Origin: Chitinophaga sp. XS-30
GTDB taxonomy: Bacteria > Bacteroidota > Bacteroidia > Chitinophagales > Chitinophagaceae
NCBI RefSeq assembly: GCF_008086345.1
Contig: NZ_CP043006.1
Location: 1,300,032-1,364,031, forward strand
Direction of reading: 5' to 3'
DNA: 64,000 nucleotides
Below the pieces are notes generated by a model that worked only from the letters and a program-made list of their open reading frames with translations, did not search any database and had not been told where the DNA came from. Positions 5,150 to 52,907 of this stretch are shown here, in pieces. Every line of letters begins with the position of its first letter. Position 1 is the stretch's first letter. The translations under genes were made by a program, and so were the position numbers.

Positions 5150-6290
5150 AGATGGTATATGCTTTTGCTTTGTTGCCATGGACCTGTACAATGCCCGGGC
5201 GTTTACCTTTTTCAAAGCTGCCGAGCGTATCTGCAAAACCCAGTGCTTCGGCGCCATTGATGGTGGCCCATTGCATGATGTCAGACAGGGGAATGGCAGG
5301 ATAATGGCGGCGCAGGGCCTGTATCTCTTCCCAGATAGACAATTGATGATTGGAAGCAAGGCTGTCGGTGCCCAGTGTCAGTGTTGCACCATTCTCCAGC
5401 AACGCGGGAATATCCGGAAGACGATTTTCAATATAGCTGTTGGCGTTGGGGCAGAGGCACCAGTACACGCCGGGCCGGGCTGCAAAACGGATATCCTCCG
5501 CTGAAGTATAGGTATTATGCACGAGCAGCAGGTTGCCGCTGTCTTTAAAATACGGGAAAAAGCTTTGCAGGCTGCTTTTGCCCGTGGCCTCAAAGCCATC
5601 GGGATGAATGCCGAAATGCCGGTAAAACTCCAGGAAAGGCCCTGCTTTCCGGCGGTACAGTTCATCTTCCGCCGCGCACTCCTGATTGTGGATGGTCAGC
5701 GGGGTATTGTTTTCCTTGGCCGCGATCATGCGGAACAGGGTAGGCGAAACGGAATAAGGCGCATGTGGTACGAGGGAAGCCGGGAGGTTTTGCGAACGGA
5801 ACTGGGCGTACACGGTGGCGGAGTGCTCCAGGCGCTGGGGGGCAGTGGCATCCACGAAACCCATGCATTCAATAAAATTGTGCCAGCGGATGGGGGAGCC
5901 GAGCTTGTAGGGCAGGGTGGCGGCGGTATTGCAAATATCCCCTACGGCCACGATGCCCTCCGCCTGCATGGCGTTCCCGGCATCGGTAATGGCCTGCTGC
6001 AAAACGTCCGGTCCCGGCGGCAGCCGCTGTTCCATGACGGTGGTCAGAAACACCGGGAGGCCGGTATGCTCCGGAATAACCCCTTTCATATGCGACAGCT
6101 CCAGGTGGCAATGGGTATTGATAAAACCCGGGCAAAGCCACCCTTCCAGCTGCCGGATATCATCCCCCGCCCAGGAACGCGGCACCACGGCGGATACCGT
6201 TCCCAAACCATCCAGTATCAACACCCGGTCCGGCCCAAGGAAACGCCTCCCGTCAAAAATATCGTCGGCTGCCAGCTTGATCATCTCCAT
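5142..6290 (-). CDS. amidohydrolase, MTA/SAH or aminofutalosine deaminase-like
   Basis: Metal-dependent amidohydrolase of 382 residues, a cytosolic TIM-barrel enzyme. Visible ligands: HCHLELSH (HxH of strand 1), a His in VPHAPYS, the His of IHNQECAAEDE, the His of LLVHNTYT and the Asp of LGTDSLASN. This pattern belongs to the SsnA / 5-methylthioadenosine-S-adenosylhomocysteine deaminase / aminofutalosine deaminase group; which substrate is used cannot be told without a tree. ATG 6290 (MEMIKLAADDIFDG) is chosen, since the upstream extension lacks the N-terminal beta-sandwich pattern. It overlaps mscS by 8 bases and is divergent from prfA. Confidence 0.85.
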   Translation of the reverse strand: MEMIKLAADDIFDGRRFLGPDRVLILDGLGTVSAVVPRSWAGDDIRQLEGWLCPGFINTHCHLELSHMKGVIPEHTGLPVFLTTVMEQRLPPGPDVLQQAITDAGNAMQAEGIVAVGDICNTAATLPYKLGSPIRWHNFIECMGFVDATAPQRLEHSATVYAQFRSQNLPASLVPHAPYSVSPTLFRMIAAKENNTPLTIHNQECAAEDELYRRKAGPFLEFYRHFGIHPDGFEATGKSSLQSFFPYFKDSGNLLLVHNTYTSAEDIRFAARPGVYWCLCPNANSYIENRLPDIPALLENGATLTLGTDSLASNHQLSIWEEIQALRRHYPAIPLSDIMQWATINGAEALGFADTLGSFEKGKRPGIVQVHGNKAKAYTIYE

Positions 6291-6329
6291 ACTTATTGTC
6301 CGCTTCGTTCTTTTTAATAGGCAAAAATG

Positions 6330-6337
6330 TAATTTTG
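6330..6337 (+). promoter_or_regulatory. candidate TAnnTTTG promoter element for prfA
   Basis: TAATTTTG lies 75 bases before the prfA start, in the divergent gap with the amidohydrolase gene. Confidence 0.5.
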
Positions 6338-6411
6338 CAACCCGAAGCAATTACGAAATACGGGTTTTTCCGGGAAATGTTAATCTCGTAATTGATAATT
6401 CGCTGGTAATT

Positions 6412-7488
6412 ATGATAGATAAATTAGATGCCATCAGGGGAAGGTACGAACAGGTAGAGCTGGCGCTTACCAATCCCGAGATAGTAAAAGATAACAAACA
6501 GTTCAGCAAGCTGAGCAAAGAGTTCAGGCAGCTGGAAAAGATCGTGAAGGTATATGATGCCTATCGTAAGCTGCTGGATACCATTGCCTTTAACAAGGAA
6601 GTGCTGGAAAGCGGGGATGAGGAAATGCGGGAGTTGGCCAAGGAGGAAACCGAGTCCCTGGCGGAACAGAAAGAAAAGATGGAAACGGATATCCGCAACC
6701 TGCTGATCCCGAAAGACCCGCAGGACGAGAAGAACGCGATCCTGGAGATCCGCGGCGGCACCGGTGGTGATGAGGCGAGCCTTTTTGCAGGCGACCTCCT
6801 CCGCATGTACCTGCGCTTTTGCGAGAACAAAGGCTGGAAAACAGCCATCATGAACGAAAACCCCGGAGCCGTAGGCGGCTACAAGGAAGTAGTGGTGGAA
6901 GTGACCGGGGATGATGTGTATGGGACACTTAAATTCGAATCCGGCGTTCACCGCGTGCAGCGTGTTCCGGCCACGGAAGCATCCGGCCGGGTGCATACTT
7001 CGGCGGCTACAGTGGCCGTATTGCCCGAGGCGGAAGACGTGGACGTAGAGATCCGGGACGCCGATATCAAAATGGATACCTTCCGCTCCTCCGGTGCGGG
7101 CGGCCAGCACGTTAACAAAACGGAGTCGGCCGTACGGCTGACCCATATCCCTACCGGCGTTGTCGTGGAATGCCAGGAAGGCCGGAGCCAGCACTCCAAC
7201 CGGGACATCGCCATGCGTATGCTGCGTACCCGCATCTACGAAGCGGCCGTGCGCAAACACGAAGACGCTATCGCTTCCAAGCGCAAAAGCCTCGTTTCCA
7301 CAGGTGACCGCTCCGCCAAGATCCGTACCTATAACTACCCCCAGGGCCGTATTACCGATCACCGCATCGGCATGACGGTATATAATATGGATACCTTCAT
7401 GAACGGGGAGATCGGGGAAATGATAGAAACCCTCCAGTTTGCCGAAAATGCTGAAAAGATGAAATCCGGCGATCAGATGGTAATGTAA
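6412..7488 (+). CDS. prfA: peptide chain release factor 1
   Basis: Class I release factor of 358 residues, recognising UAA/UAG and triggering peptidyl-tRNA hydrolysis on the ribosome. The catalytic GGQ is at residues 230-232 within SSGAGGQHVNKTESAVRL, followed by the conserved THIPTGVVVECQEGRSQHSNRD. The PxT-type codon-recognition loop is represented by RVPATEASGRVHTS. The ATG at 6412 (MIDKLDAIRGRYEQVE) is the usual start; reading further upstream runs into the divergent gene. The gene is alone between the amidohydrolase and the DUF937 gene; hemK/prmC is not next to it. Confidence 0.97.
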   Translation: MIDKLDAIRGRYEQVELALTNPEIVKDNKQFSKLSKEFRQLEKIVKVYDAYRKLLDTIAFNKEVLESGDEEMRELAKEETESLAEQKEKMETDIRNLLIPKDPQDEKNAILEIRGGTGGDEASLFAGDLLRMYLRFCENKGWKTAIMNENPGAVGGYKEVVVEVTGDDVYGTLKFESGVHRVQRVPATEASGRVHTSAATVAVLPEAEDVDVEIRDADIKMDTFRSSGAGGQHVNKTESAVRLTHIPTGVVVECQEGRSQHSNRDIAMRMLRTRIYEAAVRKHEDAIASKRKSLVSTGDRSAKIRTYNYPQGRITDHRIGMTVYNMDTFMNGEIGEMIETLQFAENAEKMKSGDQMVM

Positions 7489-47595: not shown

Positions 47596-48693
47596 ATGGC
47601 AACAAAGAAGAAGGTTGCTAGTAAAACTACCAAGAAGGCGGTACCTGCCAAGAAAACTGTAGCTAAGAAAGCGGCTCCTGCGGCAAAGAAACCCGCGGCT
47701 AAACCCGTGCCTGCCAAAAAAGCGGCTGCTCCCAAAAAAGGGGCATCCGGCAAGGCAAAGCCGATAGCAGCGAAGCCCGCATCCGGTAAAGCGGCAGTAA
47801 AGAAAACACCAGTGAAAGCCGCTCCCAAAAAAGCGGCCGCCGCCAGGAAACCCGCAGTTGCCCCAAAGAAAGCAGCCGTTGCCAAAGGACCCGCGAAGAA
47901 AGCACCAGCAAAAAAAGCACTACCGGCTCCAAAAACGCCGGTAACGAAGTCAACTCCGGCGAAAGCAAAAGCGCCCGCAGCGAAGAAGGCTCCCGTGACG
48001 AAAGCACCGGCAGCAAAACCAGCGCCGGCAGCAAGCAAGCCCGCAGCGCCGAAAACGATTGCCAAGCCGGTTATTTCTAAACCCGTAGAAAAAGTCGATA
48101 TAATGCCAGCAAAGAATAAACAGGAAAAACCAGCGAAAGAGACAGTCAAGAAAGCGAGCAAAACAGAAGAACCTGTAAGAAGGACAACTGAAAGGCCAAC
48201 TTCAAGAACTGTTGCCAGTAAATCTTCTACTCCAGGCAGGCCAACGATGAAGACGGTCACCACTTATGCTCCGGAGTTCACTAAATCCGTGCTGGATCAG
48301 CCGGACGCGCCTACCGGACCGATCTACCGTTACAGCGATCCCGAACTGCAGGAGTTCAAAGAGATCATCCTGAAGAAACTGGAAGCTGCCAAAAAAGAAC
48401 TCGTCTATCTCCAGGGGCTTATCACCCGCAAGGATGAAGCCGGTACTGATGATACCGAGAATAAGTACATGAGCATGGAGGATGGCAGCGGTTCACAGGA
48501 AAGGGAACAGTTGAACCAGATGGCCAGCCGCCAGATCCAGTTTATTGATCACCTTGAGAAAGCCCTCATGAGGATCGAAAATAAAACATATGGTATCTGC
48601 CGCGTGACCGGTAAGCTGATAGACAAAGCCCGCCTGAAGGCAGTACCTCATGCCACCCTGAGCATCGAAGCCAAACTGGCCAAAAGCAAGTAA
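47596..48693 (+). CDS. TraR/DksA-family protein with Lys/Ala/Pro-rich tail
   Basis: 365 residues. Residues 1-170 are low-complexity repeats of the AAKKPxAK / PAKKA type, resembling histone H1-like or AlgP-like DNA-compacting tails. The rest (about 245-365) is a TraR/DksA module: a coiled coil (DPELQEFKEIILKKLEAAKKELVYLQGLI), a loop, and the C-terminal GICRVTGKLIDKARLKAVPHATLS where the normal C4 zinc finger keeps a single Cys. It lies 4 bases after ileS and ends at the terminator at 48723-48749. A role in nucleoid structure and transcription is inferred, not shown. Confidence 0.9.
   Translation: MATKKKVASKTTKKAVPAKKTVAKKAAPAAKKPAAKPVPAKKAAAPKKGASGKAKPIAAKPASGKAAVKKTPVKAAPKKAAAARKPAVAPKKAAVAKGPAKKAPAKKALPAPKTPVTKSTPAKAKAPAAKKAPVTKAPAAKPAPAASKPAAPKTIAKPVISKPVEKVDIMPAKNKQEKPAKETVKKASKTEEPVRRTTERPTSRTVASKSSTPGRPTMKTVTTYAPEFTKSVLDQPDAPTGPIYRYSDPELQEFKEIILKKLEAAKKELVYLQGLITRKDEAGTDDTENKYMSMEDGSGSQEREQLNQMASRQIQFIDHLEKALMRIENKTYGICRVTGKLIDKARLKAVPHATLSIEAKLAKSK
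47599..48105 (+). repeat. degenerate coding repeats (Lys/Ala/Pro tail)
   Basis: The first half of the traR-like gene is built of short degenerate repeats such as GCCAAGAAA/GCGGCTCCC coding for AKK and AAP, which give long open frames on the opposite strand too. Such stretches are prone to expansion and contraction. Confidence 0.75.
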
Positions 48694-49363: not shown

Positions 49364-49396
49364 AAAAAAATGCCTCCCGGTTGACCGGAAGGCATT
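49364..49396 (-). terminator. terminator of the glycosyltransferase/HAD gene
   Basis: Minus-strand stem AATGCCTTCCGG / CCGGGAGGCATT (one mismatch) with loop TCAA, followed by T7 (A-run 49364-49370). Confidence 0.85.
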
Positions 49397-49420: not shown

Positions 49421-50944
49421 TTATTCTTCTTCTGCCACAGCAGGAGCCATCGCTTTTCTAACCTGCCTTGCCGCCAGGTACAACAGGCCGGCTGTAGCCA
49501 CTACCGCCAGGCTGCCCAGCCCGATATTGCGCATCTGCCGTTTGGATGGCCAGCGTCTTCCGTTCTTTACGGGGCTCGCCTGCGCGATATCCAGCAACGG
49601 GGCCATGCAGGGATCTTCAATCACCTTGTCTGCCATGAAACCAACCTCCACAAGTTGGGGATGATAGGCAACACCGATACCCGCTTTTTCCAGCATGGCG
49701 TGGTCGCTTTCCCCATTCCCCACATAGATGATGTTCTGCGGCGGGATGTGGTATTTGTCCGCAATATATTTCAGGATATGACTCTTGTCGTAATGCTGCG
49801 TATTTTCCCCCGGCTCCAGGAAGTAATCGGGAATGCTGAGCTCGCCGGTGGCCACACTATGGATCAGGTGAAGACGGTTCGCAAAGGCGAAATCTGCCCC
49901 CAGTTTGTTCTTCATATGTTGTGCAACGCATTCGAAACCATCTGTAATGAATCCGCAGACATACCCGCGTTTCTTCAGCTCCCGGATCACATGGCGGATA
50001 TCCGGTGTGTATGGAATATTGTCCGCCACTTCCAGCAGCTCAGCCAGGTTCCTGCCCTGGAAAAGCGCCGCAGAGCGCTGGAGGATCGATACCGGGTCTG
50101 AATAGTGCTGCAATATCTGGATCAGCGCTTCCTCCTGGTCAAAAGCGGCCGCAGCGAGGTAAGTATAGTTCTGTGTGAAAACGGCTTCATCCAGGTTAAA
50201 GATCACCATCTTCTGCAGCTTGTCGATCGATTCGAGAATGGAATATTCCATCTGTTCCCGGATGATATTGATATTCCCCAGCGTCTCCAGGTTCTGCAGG
50301 GGAATGCTTTCCGCCTTGCGGAGGATAGTGCGGGATACTTCGCGGGACATTTTGCTGAGCTGCTCCCAGGTCTGCATCGCATTTTCCAGCCTTCCGATAT
50401 TTACTTCCTTTATGCGTGCGTTTTGCAGGTACATATCTATCAGCAGGCCAATATCAACGCCATAGTCATTCTCAAAATGCACTTTCTGCAACAGCGATTT
50501 ACGCGCAGCGATCATTCCGCTCAGCGGTTGCTGAAAGTTTGCCAGTCCGGGGAAAAGTATGCTCAGCAAAGGTTTTGCTACCAGCTGGGTAACGCGGCCC
50601 GCCTGCCGTTCAAAATATGATTTTACAAAATCAGCTTCATCATTTACAATATCGTCCGTCAGCAGTTCTACCAGATTGTCAGGGTAAGTAAGAATATCTC
50701 CGTCGACATACATGATCACATCATGTTTTGCCGCCATCATACCTTCGCGCATGGAAATACCTTTGCCACGCTGACTGCTGGTGATCACACGCACTTTTTC
50801 TTTCATCGCTTCCTCTACGGTACGGTCTGTTGAATTATCGTCCACCACAATGATCTCTATAGGCCGGGAAGTTTTCCCGATCGTCTTTATCACCTGGCGT
50901 ATGGTGGCGCCTTCGTTAAGCACTGGTATAATTACGGAAATCAC
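49421..50944 (-). CDS. glycosyltransferase 2 fused to degenerate HAD domain and membrane tail
   Basis: 507 residues with GTG start at 50944 (VISVIIPVLNEGAT). Residues 1-210: family 2 glycosyltransferase with VVDDNSTD (34-40) and the metal DxD in YVDGDI (81-83), most like glucosyl-phosphoglycerate/dolichol-phosphate-type transferases. Residues about 240-445: HAD-superfamily phosphatase fold (SerB-like) with motif II Thr334 (FITDG) and Lys387, but motif I reads FNLDEA (Asn250 for the nucleophile Asp) and motif IV GNGESD (Asn410 for Asp). Residues about 474-492 form a membrane segment. The HAD part is likely catalytically dead or altered. It is downstream of the exporter gene on the same strand. 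Confidence 0.88.
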   Translation of the reverse strand: MISVIIPVLNEGATIRQVIKTIGKTSRPIEIIVVDDNSTDRTVEEAMKEKVRVITSSQRGKGISMREGMMAAKHDVIMYVDGDILTYPDNLVELLTDDIVNDEADFVKSYFERQAGRVTQLVAKPLLSILFPGLANFQQPLSGMIAARKSLLQKVHFENDYGVDIGLLIDMYLQNARIKEVNIGRLENAMQTWEQLSKMSREVSRTILRKAESIPLQNLETLGNINIIREQMEYSILESIDKLQKMVIFNLDEAVFTQNYTYLAAAAFDQEEALIQILQHYSDPVSILQRSAALFQGRNLAELLEVADNIPYTPDIRHVIRELKKRGYVCGFITDGFECVAQHMKNKLGADFAFANRLHLIHSVATGELSIPDYFLEPGENTQHYDKSHILKYIADKYHIPPQNIIYVGNGESDHAMLEKAGIGVAYHPQLVEVGFMADKVIEDPCMAPLLDIAQASPVKNGRRWPSKRQMRNIGLGSLAVVATAGLLYLAARQVRKAMAPAVAEEE

Positions 50945-51026: not shown

Positions 51027-51060
51027 GTTAAAGCACCTTCGCAGCGGTGAAGATGCTTTA
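51027..51060 (-). terminator. terminator-like hairpin after the exporter gene
   Basis: 13-bp stem with one mismatch (TTAAAGCACCTTC / GAAGATGCTTTAA), 21 bases beyond the stop; only a weak T-tract follows. Confidence 0.6.
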
Positions 51061-51080
51061 AATATGTGAATATTTTTCTA

Positions 51081-52907
51081 CTATTTAAATTCCTGCATCT
51101 CTACCAGCTTCTTGTAAATGCCGTTAGCAGCAAGCAACGCATCGTGTTTGCCTCTTTCCACGATCTCCCCTTTATCCATAACAATAATGTCATGCGCATG
51201 TTGAATGGTGGAAAGCCGGTGTGCTATCACGATAGTAGTGCGGTTTTGCATCAGTTTGTCCAGCGCCTCCTGTACGAGTTTTTCGGATTCTGTATCGAGT
51301 GCGGAGGTAGCTTCATCAAGAATGAGAATGGGCGGGTTCTTGTAAATGGCGCGCGCGATCGTCAGACGCTGCCGCTGGCCGCCACTGAGTTTGCTGCCAC
51401 GGTCACCAATATAGGTCTCGTACCCGTTCTCCAGCTGATCGATGAATTCATGGGCATTGGCGATCTTTGCCGCTTCCATGACTTTTGCTTTATCCACATC
51501 AGGCTGACCAAAGGCAATGTTGTTGAACACCGTATCATTAAAAAGAATAGCTTCCTGAGACACAATACCCATCAATTGCCGGAGATCTTTCAGCTGCAGA
51601 TCGCGCACATCCCGGCCGTCTATTCGCAGGCTGCCCCCGGCGGCATCATAGAAACGCGGAAGCAGGTCTGCCATGGTTGATTTGCCTGCGCCGCTTTTGC
51701 CCACCAACGCTACCATCGTCCCTTTTTCTATCCTGAGGTTGATATCCTTAAGCACGTACTGCTGCTCGTATTTGAAGGAAAGATGATCGTAAGCGATATG
51801 ACTGTCAAATGATGTGATCTTTTGCGCATCAGGTTTGTCCTCGATCACATTCGGCTCGTCCAGCAGTCCGAATATCCTTTCGCCTGCAACAATACCGCGC
51901 TGCATGGATGTAAAGGCATTGGATATGTTCTTGGCGGGTTGCAGGATCGTAAAGTAGAGGCCGAGATAGGTAATGAACTGTTCCGCCGTCAATTCCTGAT
52001 CCCCTTCGAAGATCATATATCCCCCTACCATTACCAATACCACCACCAGGATCACGCCCAGCGCTTCGGATACCGGGGAAGCCATTTCACGCTGATTATA
52101 GATAGCCTTGCTGAGTTTTGTAAATGCCCGGGTAACCTCACCGAACTTTCGCTGCATGTAACTTTCCGCCGTAAAGGCCTTGATAATGCGTATGCCGCCA
52201 AGGGATTCCTCGGAAATGTTGAGCAGTCTGCCAAGCATCTCCTGGCTGTAATATCCTTTCTTGCGCAGTTGTTTGGAGATATAAGCCACCAGGAAACCGG
52301 ATATCGGGAAGAAGACAAGCGTGAACAGCGTCAGCTTTACCGAGATGTAGAACAGCGCGAAGAAAGTGAAAATGATGATGAAAGGATCACGCAGCAACAC
52401 CTGTATCGAGTTGGCAATGGTGTACTCCACTTCAGATACGTCATTGGTCATGACAGACAGCAGATCACCCTTGCGGCGCTGATTGAAAAAGGACATGGAT
52501 TGCGAGGTGATGCGTTCGTATAGCCGGTTCCGTATCCTTTCCAGGATATTCATCCGCAGGCGTACCATCACCCGTACGCTCATGTAACGGCCAACATTGG
52601 CGATCAGTGTGGAAGAGGCGATAACGATGCAGACAAACGCCAGCGCATAGCTCTTCCCGTTTTCCGTAGCGAACTTCTGAAAATAGAAGGTGAACAGATC
52701 GATGAAATATCTGATCGTAAAGGAAAATTCAGGTATTGCCGCCACGGTGGCCTGCTCCGGAGGATCGAACAATACCTGCAGCAGCGGGATCAGCATGGTG
52801 AAGTTGATCAGGCCGAATATGATCCCGATCAGGGCGTAGATCACATATTCAGGTATATAGTGATGCAAAGGCCGTACAAACCTGAGCATTCGCAAAAAAG
52901 TATTCAT
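51081..52907 (-). CDS. MsbA-like ABC exporter (fused membrane and ATPase domains)
   Basis: 608-residue half-transporter. Six membrane helices in residues 1-330, then an ATPase domain with Walker A GKSGAGKST, Q-loop VSQEAILF, signature LSGGQRQRL, Walker B ILILDEATSALD and the H-loop IAHRL. MsbA-type proteins flip lipid A or other lipids across the inner membrane; lipid or drug substrate cannot be told from sequence. A TACTTTTG box lies 20 bases before ATG 52907. Downstream on the same strand is the glycosyltransferase/HAD gene. Confidence 0.93.
   Translation of the reverse strand: MNTFLRMLRFVRPLHHYIPEYVIYALIGIIFGLINFTMLIPLLQVLFDPPEQATVAAIPEFSFTIRYFIDLFTFYFQKFATENGKSYALAFVCIVIASSTLIANVGRYMSVRVMVRLRMNILERIRNRLYERITSQSMSFFNQRRKGDLLSVMTNDVSEVEYTIANSIQVLLRDPFIIIFTFFALFYISVKLTLFTLVFFPISGFLVAYISKQLRKKGYYSQEMLGRLLNISEESLGGIRIIKAFTAESYMQRKFGEVTRAFTKLSKAIYNQREMASPVSEALGVILVVVLVMVGGYMIFEGDQELTAEQFITYLGLYFTILQPAKNISNAFTSMQRGIVAGERIFGLLDEPNVIEDKPDAQKITSFDSHIAYDHLSFKYEQQYVLKDINLRIEKGTMVALVGKSGAGKSTMADLLPRFYDAAGGSLRIDGRDVRDLQLKDLRQLMGIVSQEAILFNDTVFNNIAFGQPDVDKAKVMEAAKIANAHEFIDQLENGYETYIGDRGSKLSGGQRQRLTIARAIYKNPPILILDEATSALDTESEKLVQEALDKLMQNRTTIVIAHRLSTIQHAHDIIVMDKGEIVERGKHDALLAANGIYKKLVEMQEFK

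Follow-up and report, generated by a model that had tools for sequence, protein, structure and literature searches.

A GpgS-like glycosyltransferase of Chitinophaga fused to a probably retired HAD phosphatase domain and a probable membrane tail

Introduction

GpgS, presumably a GT81 glycosyltransferase (GT), and enzymes of its type yield a phosphorylated product that is completed by a phosphatase. Of the fused systems compared here, MgsD probably has a phosphatase of another HAD class, and plant class I trehalose-6-phosphate synthase (TPS) belongs to another GT family. In the accessible part of its report, MgsD of Dehalococcoides mccartyi is a bifunctional mannosylglycerate synthase/phosphatase with both enzymes fused (PMC8490865). 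The C-terminal phosphatase domain of plant class I TPS is presumed inactive, according to the section of the source at hand (PMC9569751). Extracts of a third study place the prokaryotic synthase/phosphatase fusion TPSP of Thermoproteus tenax in the same operon as a mechanosensitive channel and make activation of its synthase dependent on the fusion (PMC3634074). For M. tuberculosis GpgS, the available text names the residues near UDP, the metal, the sugar and 3-phosphoglycerate, the carboxylate of the latter being held by V186 and T187 (PMC2581804).

Here, by computing domains, residues, family types, synteny and selection, we compared with these systems a protein of Chitinophaga sp. XS-30 that joins a GpgS-like GT, a SerB-like HAD domain and a C-terminal hydrophobic helix. 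It belongs to the tailed type B of a family whose tail-less members are called type A. GpgS shares with it the GT-A fold, the DxD motif, the GRVT acceptor loop and the PLSG motif, but has neither the HAD nor the tail fusion. In MgsD, as far as its partial text goes, a single chain carries both the synthase and the phosphatase; type A resembles such an enzyme, whereas the type B phosphatase is predicted to be dead. Plant class I TPS, in the excerpted account, is similarly built: its glycosyltransferase is active and precedes a phosphatase-like domain that lacks some of the catalytic residues, and separate active phosphatases exist alongside; its product is another, its host is a eukaryote, and no homology of the fusion is claimed. 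By this analogy the Chitinophaga protein may work like plant class I TPS while being unrelated to it as a fusion. TPSP differs, on the text available, in that its phosphatase is active and its product is trehalose. Among the literature matches listed on HAD pseudophosphatases, on Bacteroidetes and solutes and on Chitinophaga, a scope that most subscription papers fall outside, no report of a GT-HAD-tail protein was found.

Results

The protein is encoded on the reverse strand of the window, that is, the whole 64,000-nucleotide stretch of DNA analysed, and has the following features (window positions).

49421..50944, reverse strand: GT-HAD-tail protein, type B of the family, 507 aa, GTG start
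50300..50938, reverse strand: GpgS-like GT-A glycosyltransferase domain, residues 3-215 (NF010496, PDB and Foldseek matches)
50696..50704, reverse strand: DxD motif, D81-G82-D83
50588..50599, reverse strand: GRVT acceptor loop, residues 116-119
50222..50299, reverse strand: inter-domain stretch (linker), residues 216-241, in which 18/26 columns are conserved across 55 or more of the 56 Chitinophaga sequences
49625..50221, reverse strand: SerB-like HAD domain, residues 242-440, predicted catalytically dead (profiles, motif residues, fold)
50195..50197, reverse strand: N250 (AAC) at the HAD nucleophile Asp site (codon and alignment)
49715..49717, reverse strand: N410 (AAT) at the first motif IV Asp site, variable in the genus (codon and alignment)
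49466..49525, reverse strand: hydrophobic helix at the C-terminus (about residues 474-493), probably a tail anchor (hydropathy and model)

Profiles, hydropathy and the predicted model bore out the order given in the first-pass annotation, a GT, a SerB-like HAD domain and a C-terminal helix. PF00535 matched residues 3-107 (9.2e-23), in agreement with the family 2 glycosyltransferase named there, but this generic label gave way to a GpgS-like assignment. The HAD part matched PF00702 and PF12710 in the profile search. Hydropathy of the tail was 2.0 across 17 residues, and the structure prediction placed a helix at residues 477-498 and another at 219-238 of the linker, both with low pLDDT. Because its pTM was only 0.48, the model leaves the arrangement of the domains unfixed.

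By profile, fold and pocket residues, the GT half resembles GpgS. The best NCBIfam profile was GpgS NF010496 (2.4e-48, 164.8 bits), the best PDB sequence matches were mycobacterial GpgS (4.5e-25), and GpgS headed the Foldseek matches of the predicted model (1.2e-17, about 35% identity over 229 columns). When the GpgS pocket residues were carried over via the PDB sequence alignment, they were found as P7, L9, E11, D81, D83, V118, T119, L141, Y161, D164 and M199, each of which, as well as R117, was present in 62/62 type B proteins; K61 and QPLSG were present in all 37 sequences of a separate alignment. The GpgS signature of DxD, Lys-Asp-acid network, GRVT and PLSG was found in the window GT, where the acid of the network is Asp, as it is in MgS. 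Two pocket positions were exceptions: S81 of GpgS is replaced by D36, and His258 of the metal site by N188. Asn188 was shared by 62/62 type B and 38/39 type A proteins. Inspection by eye found Asn there also in the fusions L147 and L148, whereas L151, a divergent fusion, and 6/6 stand-alone homologues inspected had His. The type A member L205 matched Pfam MGS_GT, mannosylglycerate synthase (2.5e-6, 27.5 bits against a cut-off of 27). A GpgS-like GT would explain the fusion, since a phosphatase is the expected next step. The protein thus has the look of an enzyme that made glucosyl- or mannosylglycerate in two steps and whose phosphatase half is dead.

The HAD half shares its fold with SerB, phosphoserine phosphatase of HAD class IB. 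Foldseek gave TM-scores of 0.81-0.86, by target length, against single-domain SerB chains, and model pLDDT was 83-94 per ten residues over 251-430. SerB TIGR00338 matched residues 242-451 (1.3e-24), but the score of 87 bits lies below the cut-off of 144.15, and the nucleophile is Asn instead of Asp. As the GT score also misses the GpgS equivalog cut-off of 262 bits, the protein is by curated cut-offs a member of neither GpgS nor SerB. The codons confirmed the residues read in the first pass, N250 at the nucleophile site and N410 at the motif IV site, with D252, T334, K387 and D414 retained; motif I is hit beyond the nucleophile, the Thr of DxDxT being Ala254. Both changes to Asn are known as engineered mutants. 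The best PDB sequence match (1l7o/1l7p) has Asn at the nucleophile, 1L7P being the phosphoserine-bound D11N mutant of SerB, an enzyme in which phosphate passes to Asp11, as stated in the portion of the source available (PMC6321591). Foldseek also lists the M. avium SerB2 mutant D343N (5it4), whose Asn aligns with N410.

A homologue search returned 49 loci, of which 47 were from Chitinophaga, one from a Flavihumibacter MAG and one a weak archaeal match. Residues were counted in 56 distinct Chitinophaga sequences, with identical sequences counted once and L078 (broken frame, 416 aa) excluded beforehand. Position 250 was Asn in 55 and Asp in one (L025), while Asp252 and Thr334 were invariant. Position 254 was Ala in 31, Thr in 22 and Val in 3; position 387 was Lys in 49 and Arg in 7; position 410 was Asp in 21, Asn in 17, Ser in 17 and Gly in 1; and position 414 was Asp in 43, Gly in 11, Asn in 1 and Ser in 1. 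This variation at 254, 387, 410 and 414 argues against one conserved Mg-phosphate pocket. A complete HAD catalytic set was found in 0/56, and no sequence among them paired Asp250 with Asp410, the combination in close relatives that would have spoken for a local mutation. The loss of the nucleophile is shared and old, whereas motif IV exists in several states, of which Asn is one. Support was lacking for the first-pass suggestion that two parallel Asp-to-Asn changes are meaningful together, because only N250 is near-fixed; a coupled double change was rejected, position 410 being D, N, S or G. L025 is nested within Chitinophaga in the trees, and its Asp was rejected as proof of an ancestral Asp in the genus, a reversal and repeated losses both being possible.

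Type A proteins are about 458 aa long and lack the tail helix. The complete phosphatase site of an MgsD-like bifunctional enzyme was found in 33/39 of them and in 0/62 type B proteins (56 from Chitinophaga and 6 others). The six others have Glu at the nucleophile (four) or Asp together with a one-residue gap in motif I (two). A type A query matched 62 of 396 genomes of the order at E 1e-20; of the matches without a locus, regions were read for 20, leaving out, for example, G341, G158 and G178. Outside the order, full-length fusions were found in G627, G605 and G554 (395 genomes of the phylum, E 1e-15). The divergent fusion of G554 (L206; 38%) has kept its HAD motifs intact and carries the His of the GpgS metal site; it served as outgroup to the other fusions.

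When 101 distinct full-length fusions were placed in a midpoint-rooted tree, the 62 tailed type B proteins stood apart from the 39 tail-less type A proteins. With outgroup rooting of sampled rows, type B formed one clade in both trees, with support of 100/100 for the HAD (22 of 59 rows being type B) and 100/98 for the GT (22 of 54). Type A is paraphyletic, type B falling inside it when an outgroup is used, whereas the midpoint tree draws the two as sisters. Both types occur in three genomes of genus g34 (G154, G345 and G374), and the order search found type B only in G312. The two copies may have arisen by duplication, as we assume here, or by transfer between lineages. Loss of the nucleophile also occurs in two further fusions, L204 (Glu) and L140 (Gly), as well as in the stand-alone HAD L135 (Gly), and a quick motif-masked HAD tree of 59 rows required at least five changes of nucleophile state. 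In L135 (about 5806-6549), the HAD lies beside kinase, response regulator and Usp genes without a transferase, and may be a dead phosphatase that stands alone. The frames of the family GT and HAD abut or overlap in L133 and L134, where the HAD motifs are intact, either as separate genes or through a frame break in a fusion; both loci were kept out of the evidence.

Pairwise Nei-Gojobori dN/dS was computed from up to 40 of the 56 Chitinophaga sequences, using pairs with overall dS up to 1.2. Median values for type B were 0.026 for the GT, 0.065 for the HAD, 0.061 for the tail and 0 for the linker (51-61 pairs; HAD 61); those for two type A sets were 0.047 and 0.034 for the GT and 0.085 (14 pairs) and 0.064 (4 pairs) for the HAD, all being rough values because dS is near 1 and type A rests on 14-15 and 4 pairs. 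The predicted dead HAD is constrained about as much as the active HAD and is under purifying selection, and 52/199 HAD columns, including N250, D252 and T334, were conserved in at least 55 of 56 Chitinophaga sequences. A kept fold, a replaced nucleophile and purifying selection are the marks of a pseudo-phosphatase, and together with N250 in 55/56 they uphold the first-pass reading of a domain kept as such rather than a local accident. The median HAD/GT distance ratio, on the other hand, was 3.39 in Chitinophaga type B (1459 pairs) versus 1.69 in type A (740 pairs), and 3.2-4.0 versus 1.4-1.9 at matched GT divergence. The HAD of type B has changed about twice as fast relative to its GT, which fits relaxation.

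A search at E 1e-18 matched 72 of 79 Chitinophaga genomes, 11 of them twice and 61, including that of the window, once only. Two of the 11 genomes, G821 (L205, motifs intact) and G817 (L204, Glu nucleophile), had a full-length type A protein as second copy; in the other nine it was a stand-alone HAD whose open frame spans 223-268 codons. Each of these stand-alone HADs has intact motifs, and all nine nest in type A with L205 and the g35 fusions (HAD tree, support 99/97). Each of the seven whose surroundings were read adjoins an ArgRS and a TPR gene, with DnaK in the stretch for 6/7; the full-length fusions L205 and L143 occupy the same ArgRS/TPR/DnaK locus, and L138 has ArgRS and DnaK nearby. 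Read most simply, the ArgRS/TPR locus lost its transferase but retained the phosphatase, and type B did the opposite. This split of labour is incomplete, as 61 of the 72 genomes show one match only. In the window genome, a protein search at E 0.001 found no second family copy, and its TPR-ArgRS-DnaK locus (L209) holds an OmpA-family gene and no HAD remnant (best tblastn E 2.7). Five other PF12710 places, two of them above the cut-off, were found in that genome, so a phosphatase from elsewhere is possible.

The surroundings of the gene include the following features.

51081..52907, reverse strand: MsbA-like ABC exporter, upstream neighbour, whose cluster adjoins the gene in 44/51 Chitinophaga loci compared
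51028..51061, reverse strand: terminator-like hairpin between the MsbA-like gene and the GT-HAD gene
49369..49396, reverse strand: terminator-like hairpin directly 3' of the GT-HAD gene

Four terminator-like sites were found in the 64-kb window versus 1.9 expected by shuffles. The hairpin between the two genes makes co-transcription with the exporter doubtful. The exporter cluster is absent beside the gene in L041, L042, L044, L045, L046, L078 and L079, and the six type B genes outside Chitinophaga have other neighbours. An operon with the exporter was rejected because of the intervening hairpin and these other neighbours. Neighbour families were named from one representative per cluster. A universal stress protein (Usp) gene adjoins 14/41 type A fusion loci compared, many of which have short flanks, and sensor kinase genes adjoin some. 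Among 59 loci checked, many with a flank of about 1.5 kb, MscS lay beside a family member only at L204. In L204:1934-6571, a response regulator, a sensor kinase, an MscS channel and the GT-HAD fusion with Glu nucleophile stand in a row with Usp close by; this stretch of a Chitinophaga genome resembles a cassette for osmotic stress. The Usp, sensor kinase and MscS neighbours fit a stress solute.

Discussion

We consider it probable, with moderate confidence, that the window protein is a GpgS-like transferase, probably tail-anchored, with a retired but retained pseudo-phosphatase, derived from a two-headed enzyme. The transferase would carry a sugar from a sugar nucleotide to 3-phosphoglycerate or a close relative, giving a glycosyl-3-phosphoglycerate with retention. 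A two-step synthase/phosphatase gene may have given rise to two copies. In most lineages the type A copy would have remained two-headed, while in Chitinophaga it would have shrunk to a stand-alone phosphatase or been lost; the type B copy would have kept the transferase, gained the membrane tail and lost the nucleophile. Its HAD may be kept for a non-catalytic job, either structural or in holding or sensing a phosphorylated ligand, perhaps via the conserved linker. Against this explanation stand the HAD/GT ratio, the variable positions 254, 387, 410 and 414, Asp250 in L025, the single-match genomes, the other HAD genes, Asn188, the missed cut-off and the low pTM.

Sensing of a phosphorylated product by the HAD, raised in the first pass, is possible. 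In a more specific form, the HAD would have been switched off several times (by Asn, Glu or Gly) and would now be a product sensor controlling a membrane-tethered synthase through the linker, which we put forward tentatively. The Asn found in Chitinophaga is the change that crystallographers used to hold substrate in SerB. By analogy, such a sensor within an osmolyte-type fusion, with glycosyl-3-phosphoglycerate as the ligand, might parallel in bacteria the trehalose-phosphate synthase family, though this too has only a minor chance of being right.

The dead HAD might instead be a slowly decaying remnant that binds nothing and stays because its removal would unfold the transferase or cut off the membrane tail. 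The doubled HAD/GT distance ratio of type B, the variable pocket positions and the recurrent nucleophile loss elsewhere in the family point this way. Its dN/dS, however, resembles that of intact HADs, a quarter or so of its columns, N250, D252 and T334 among them, are held nearly fixed, and L135, also without a nucleophile, has no transferase attached. We regard the remnant as conceivable but rather unlikely.

A different acceptor for the transferase, such as a membrane lipid or a phosphopolyol, would make the fusion unrelated to glycosylglycerate, and the membrane tail, the MsbA-like neighbour, Asn188 in place of His258 and the missed equivalog cut-off are consistent with it. We doubt this reading in view of R117, V118, T119 and L141, invariant in type B, and the QPLSG motif; the MGS_GT match of L205, the Usp genes beside type A loci and the MscS channel beside L204 also argue for a glycosylglycerate, and the hairpin sets the exporter apart.

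That the HAD still catalyses, by slow hydrolysis or by phosphoryl transfer via another residue, is improbable. Asp252 and Thr334 in every Chitinophaga sequence, Lys or Arg at 387 in 56/56 and Asp250 in L025 would suit such an activity, but the partially available SerB account has phosphate going to Asp11 and phosphoserine staying bound in D11N (PMC6321591), and the best PDB match carries that Asn. Furthermore, Thr254 is gone in 34/56 and Asp410 in 35/56. The idea that one genome merely carries a local mutation or a sequencing error can be dismissed, since N250 recurs in 55/56 sequences with no complete set among them, and no point in its favour was found.

If the protein is, as we favour, a transferase with a retired phosphatase, the family lets one trace how the two jobs of a two-headed enzyme were divided between two copies that lost opposite halves. 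All the states survive in sequenced relatives: the complete type A, the type A reduced to a phosphatase, the two copies together and type B alone. It would also be a simple bacterial system for studying how a dead phosphatase domain serves the transferase fused to it, the question that plant trehalose-phosphate synthases pose as well. The annotation "bifunctional synthase/phosphatase" is probably wrong for the Chitinophaga type B proteins.

Elsewhere in the window, the forward-strand gene at 47596-48693 encodes a 365-aa protein with a long Lys/Ala/Pro-rich, histone-H1-like N-terminal half and a DksA/TraR zinc finger at 331-359, and most of the Chitinophaga loci compared have a member of its cluster (49 members) close to the type B gene.
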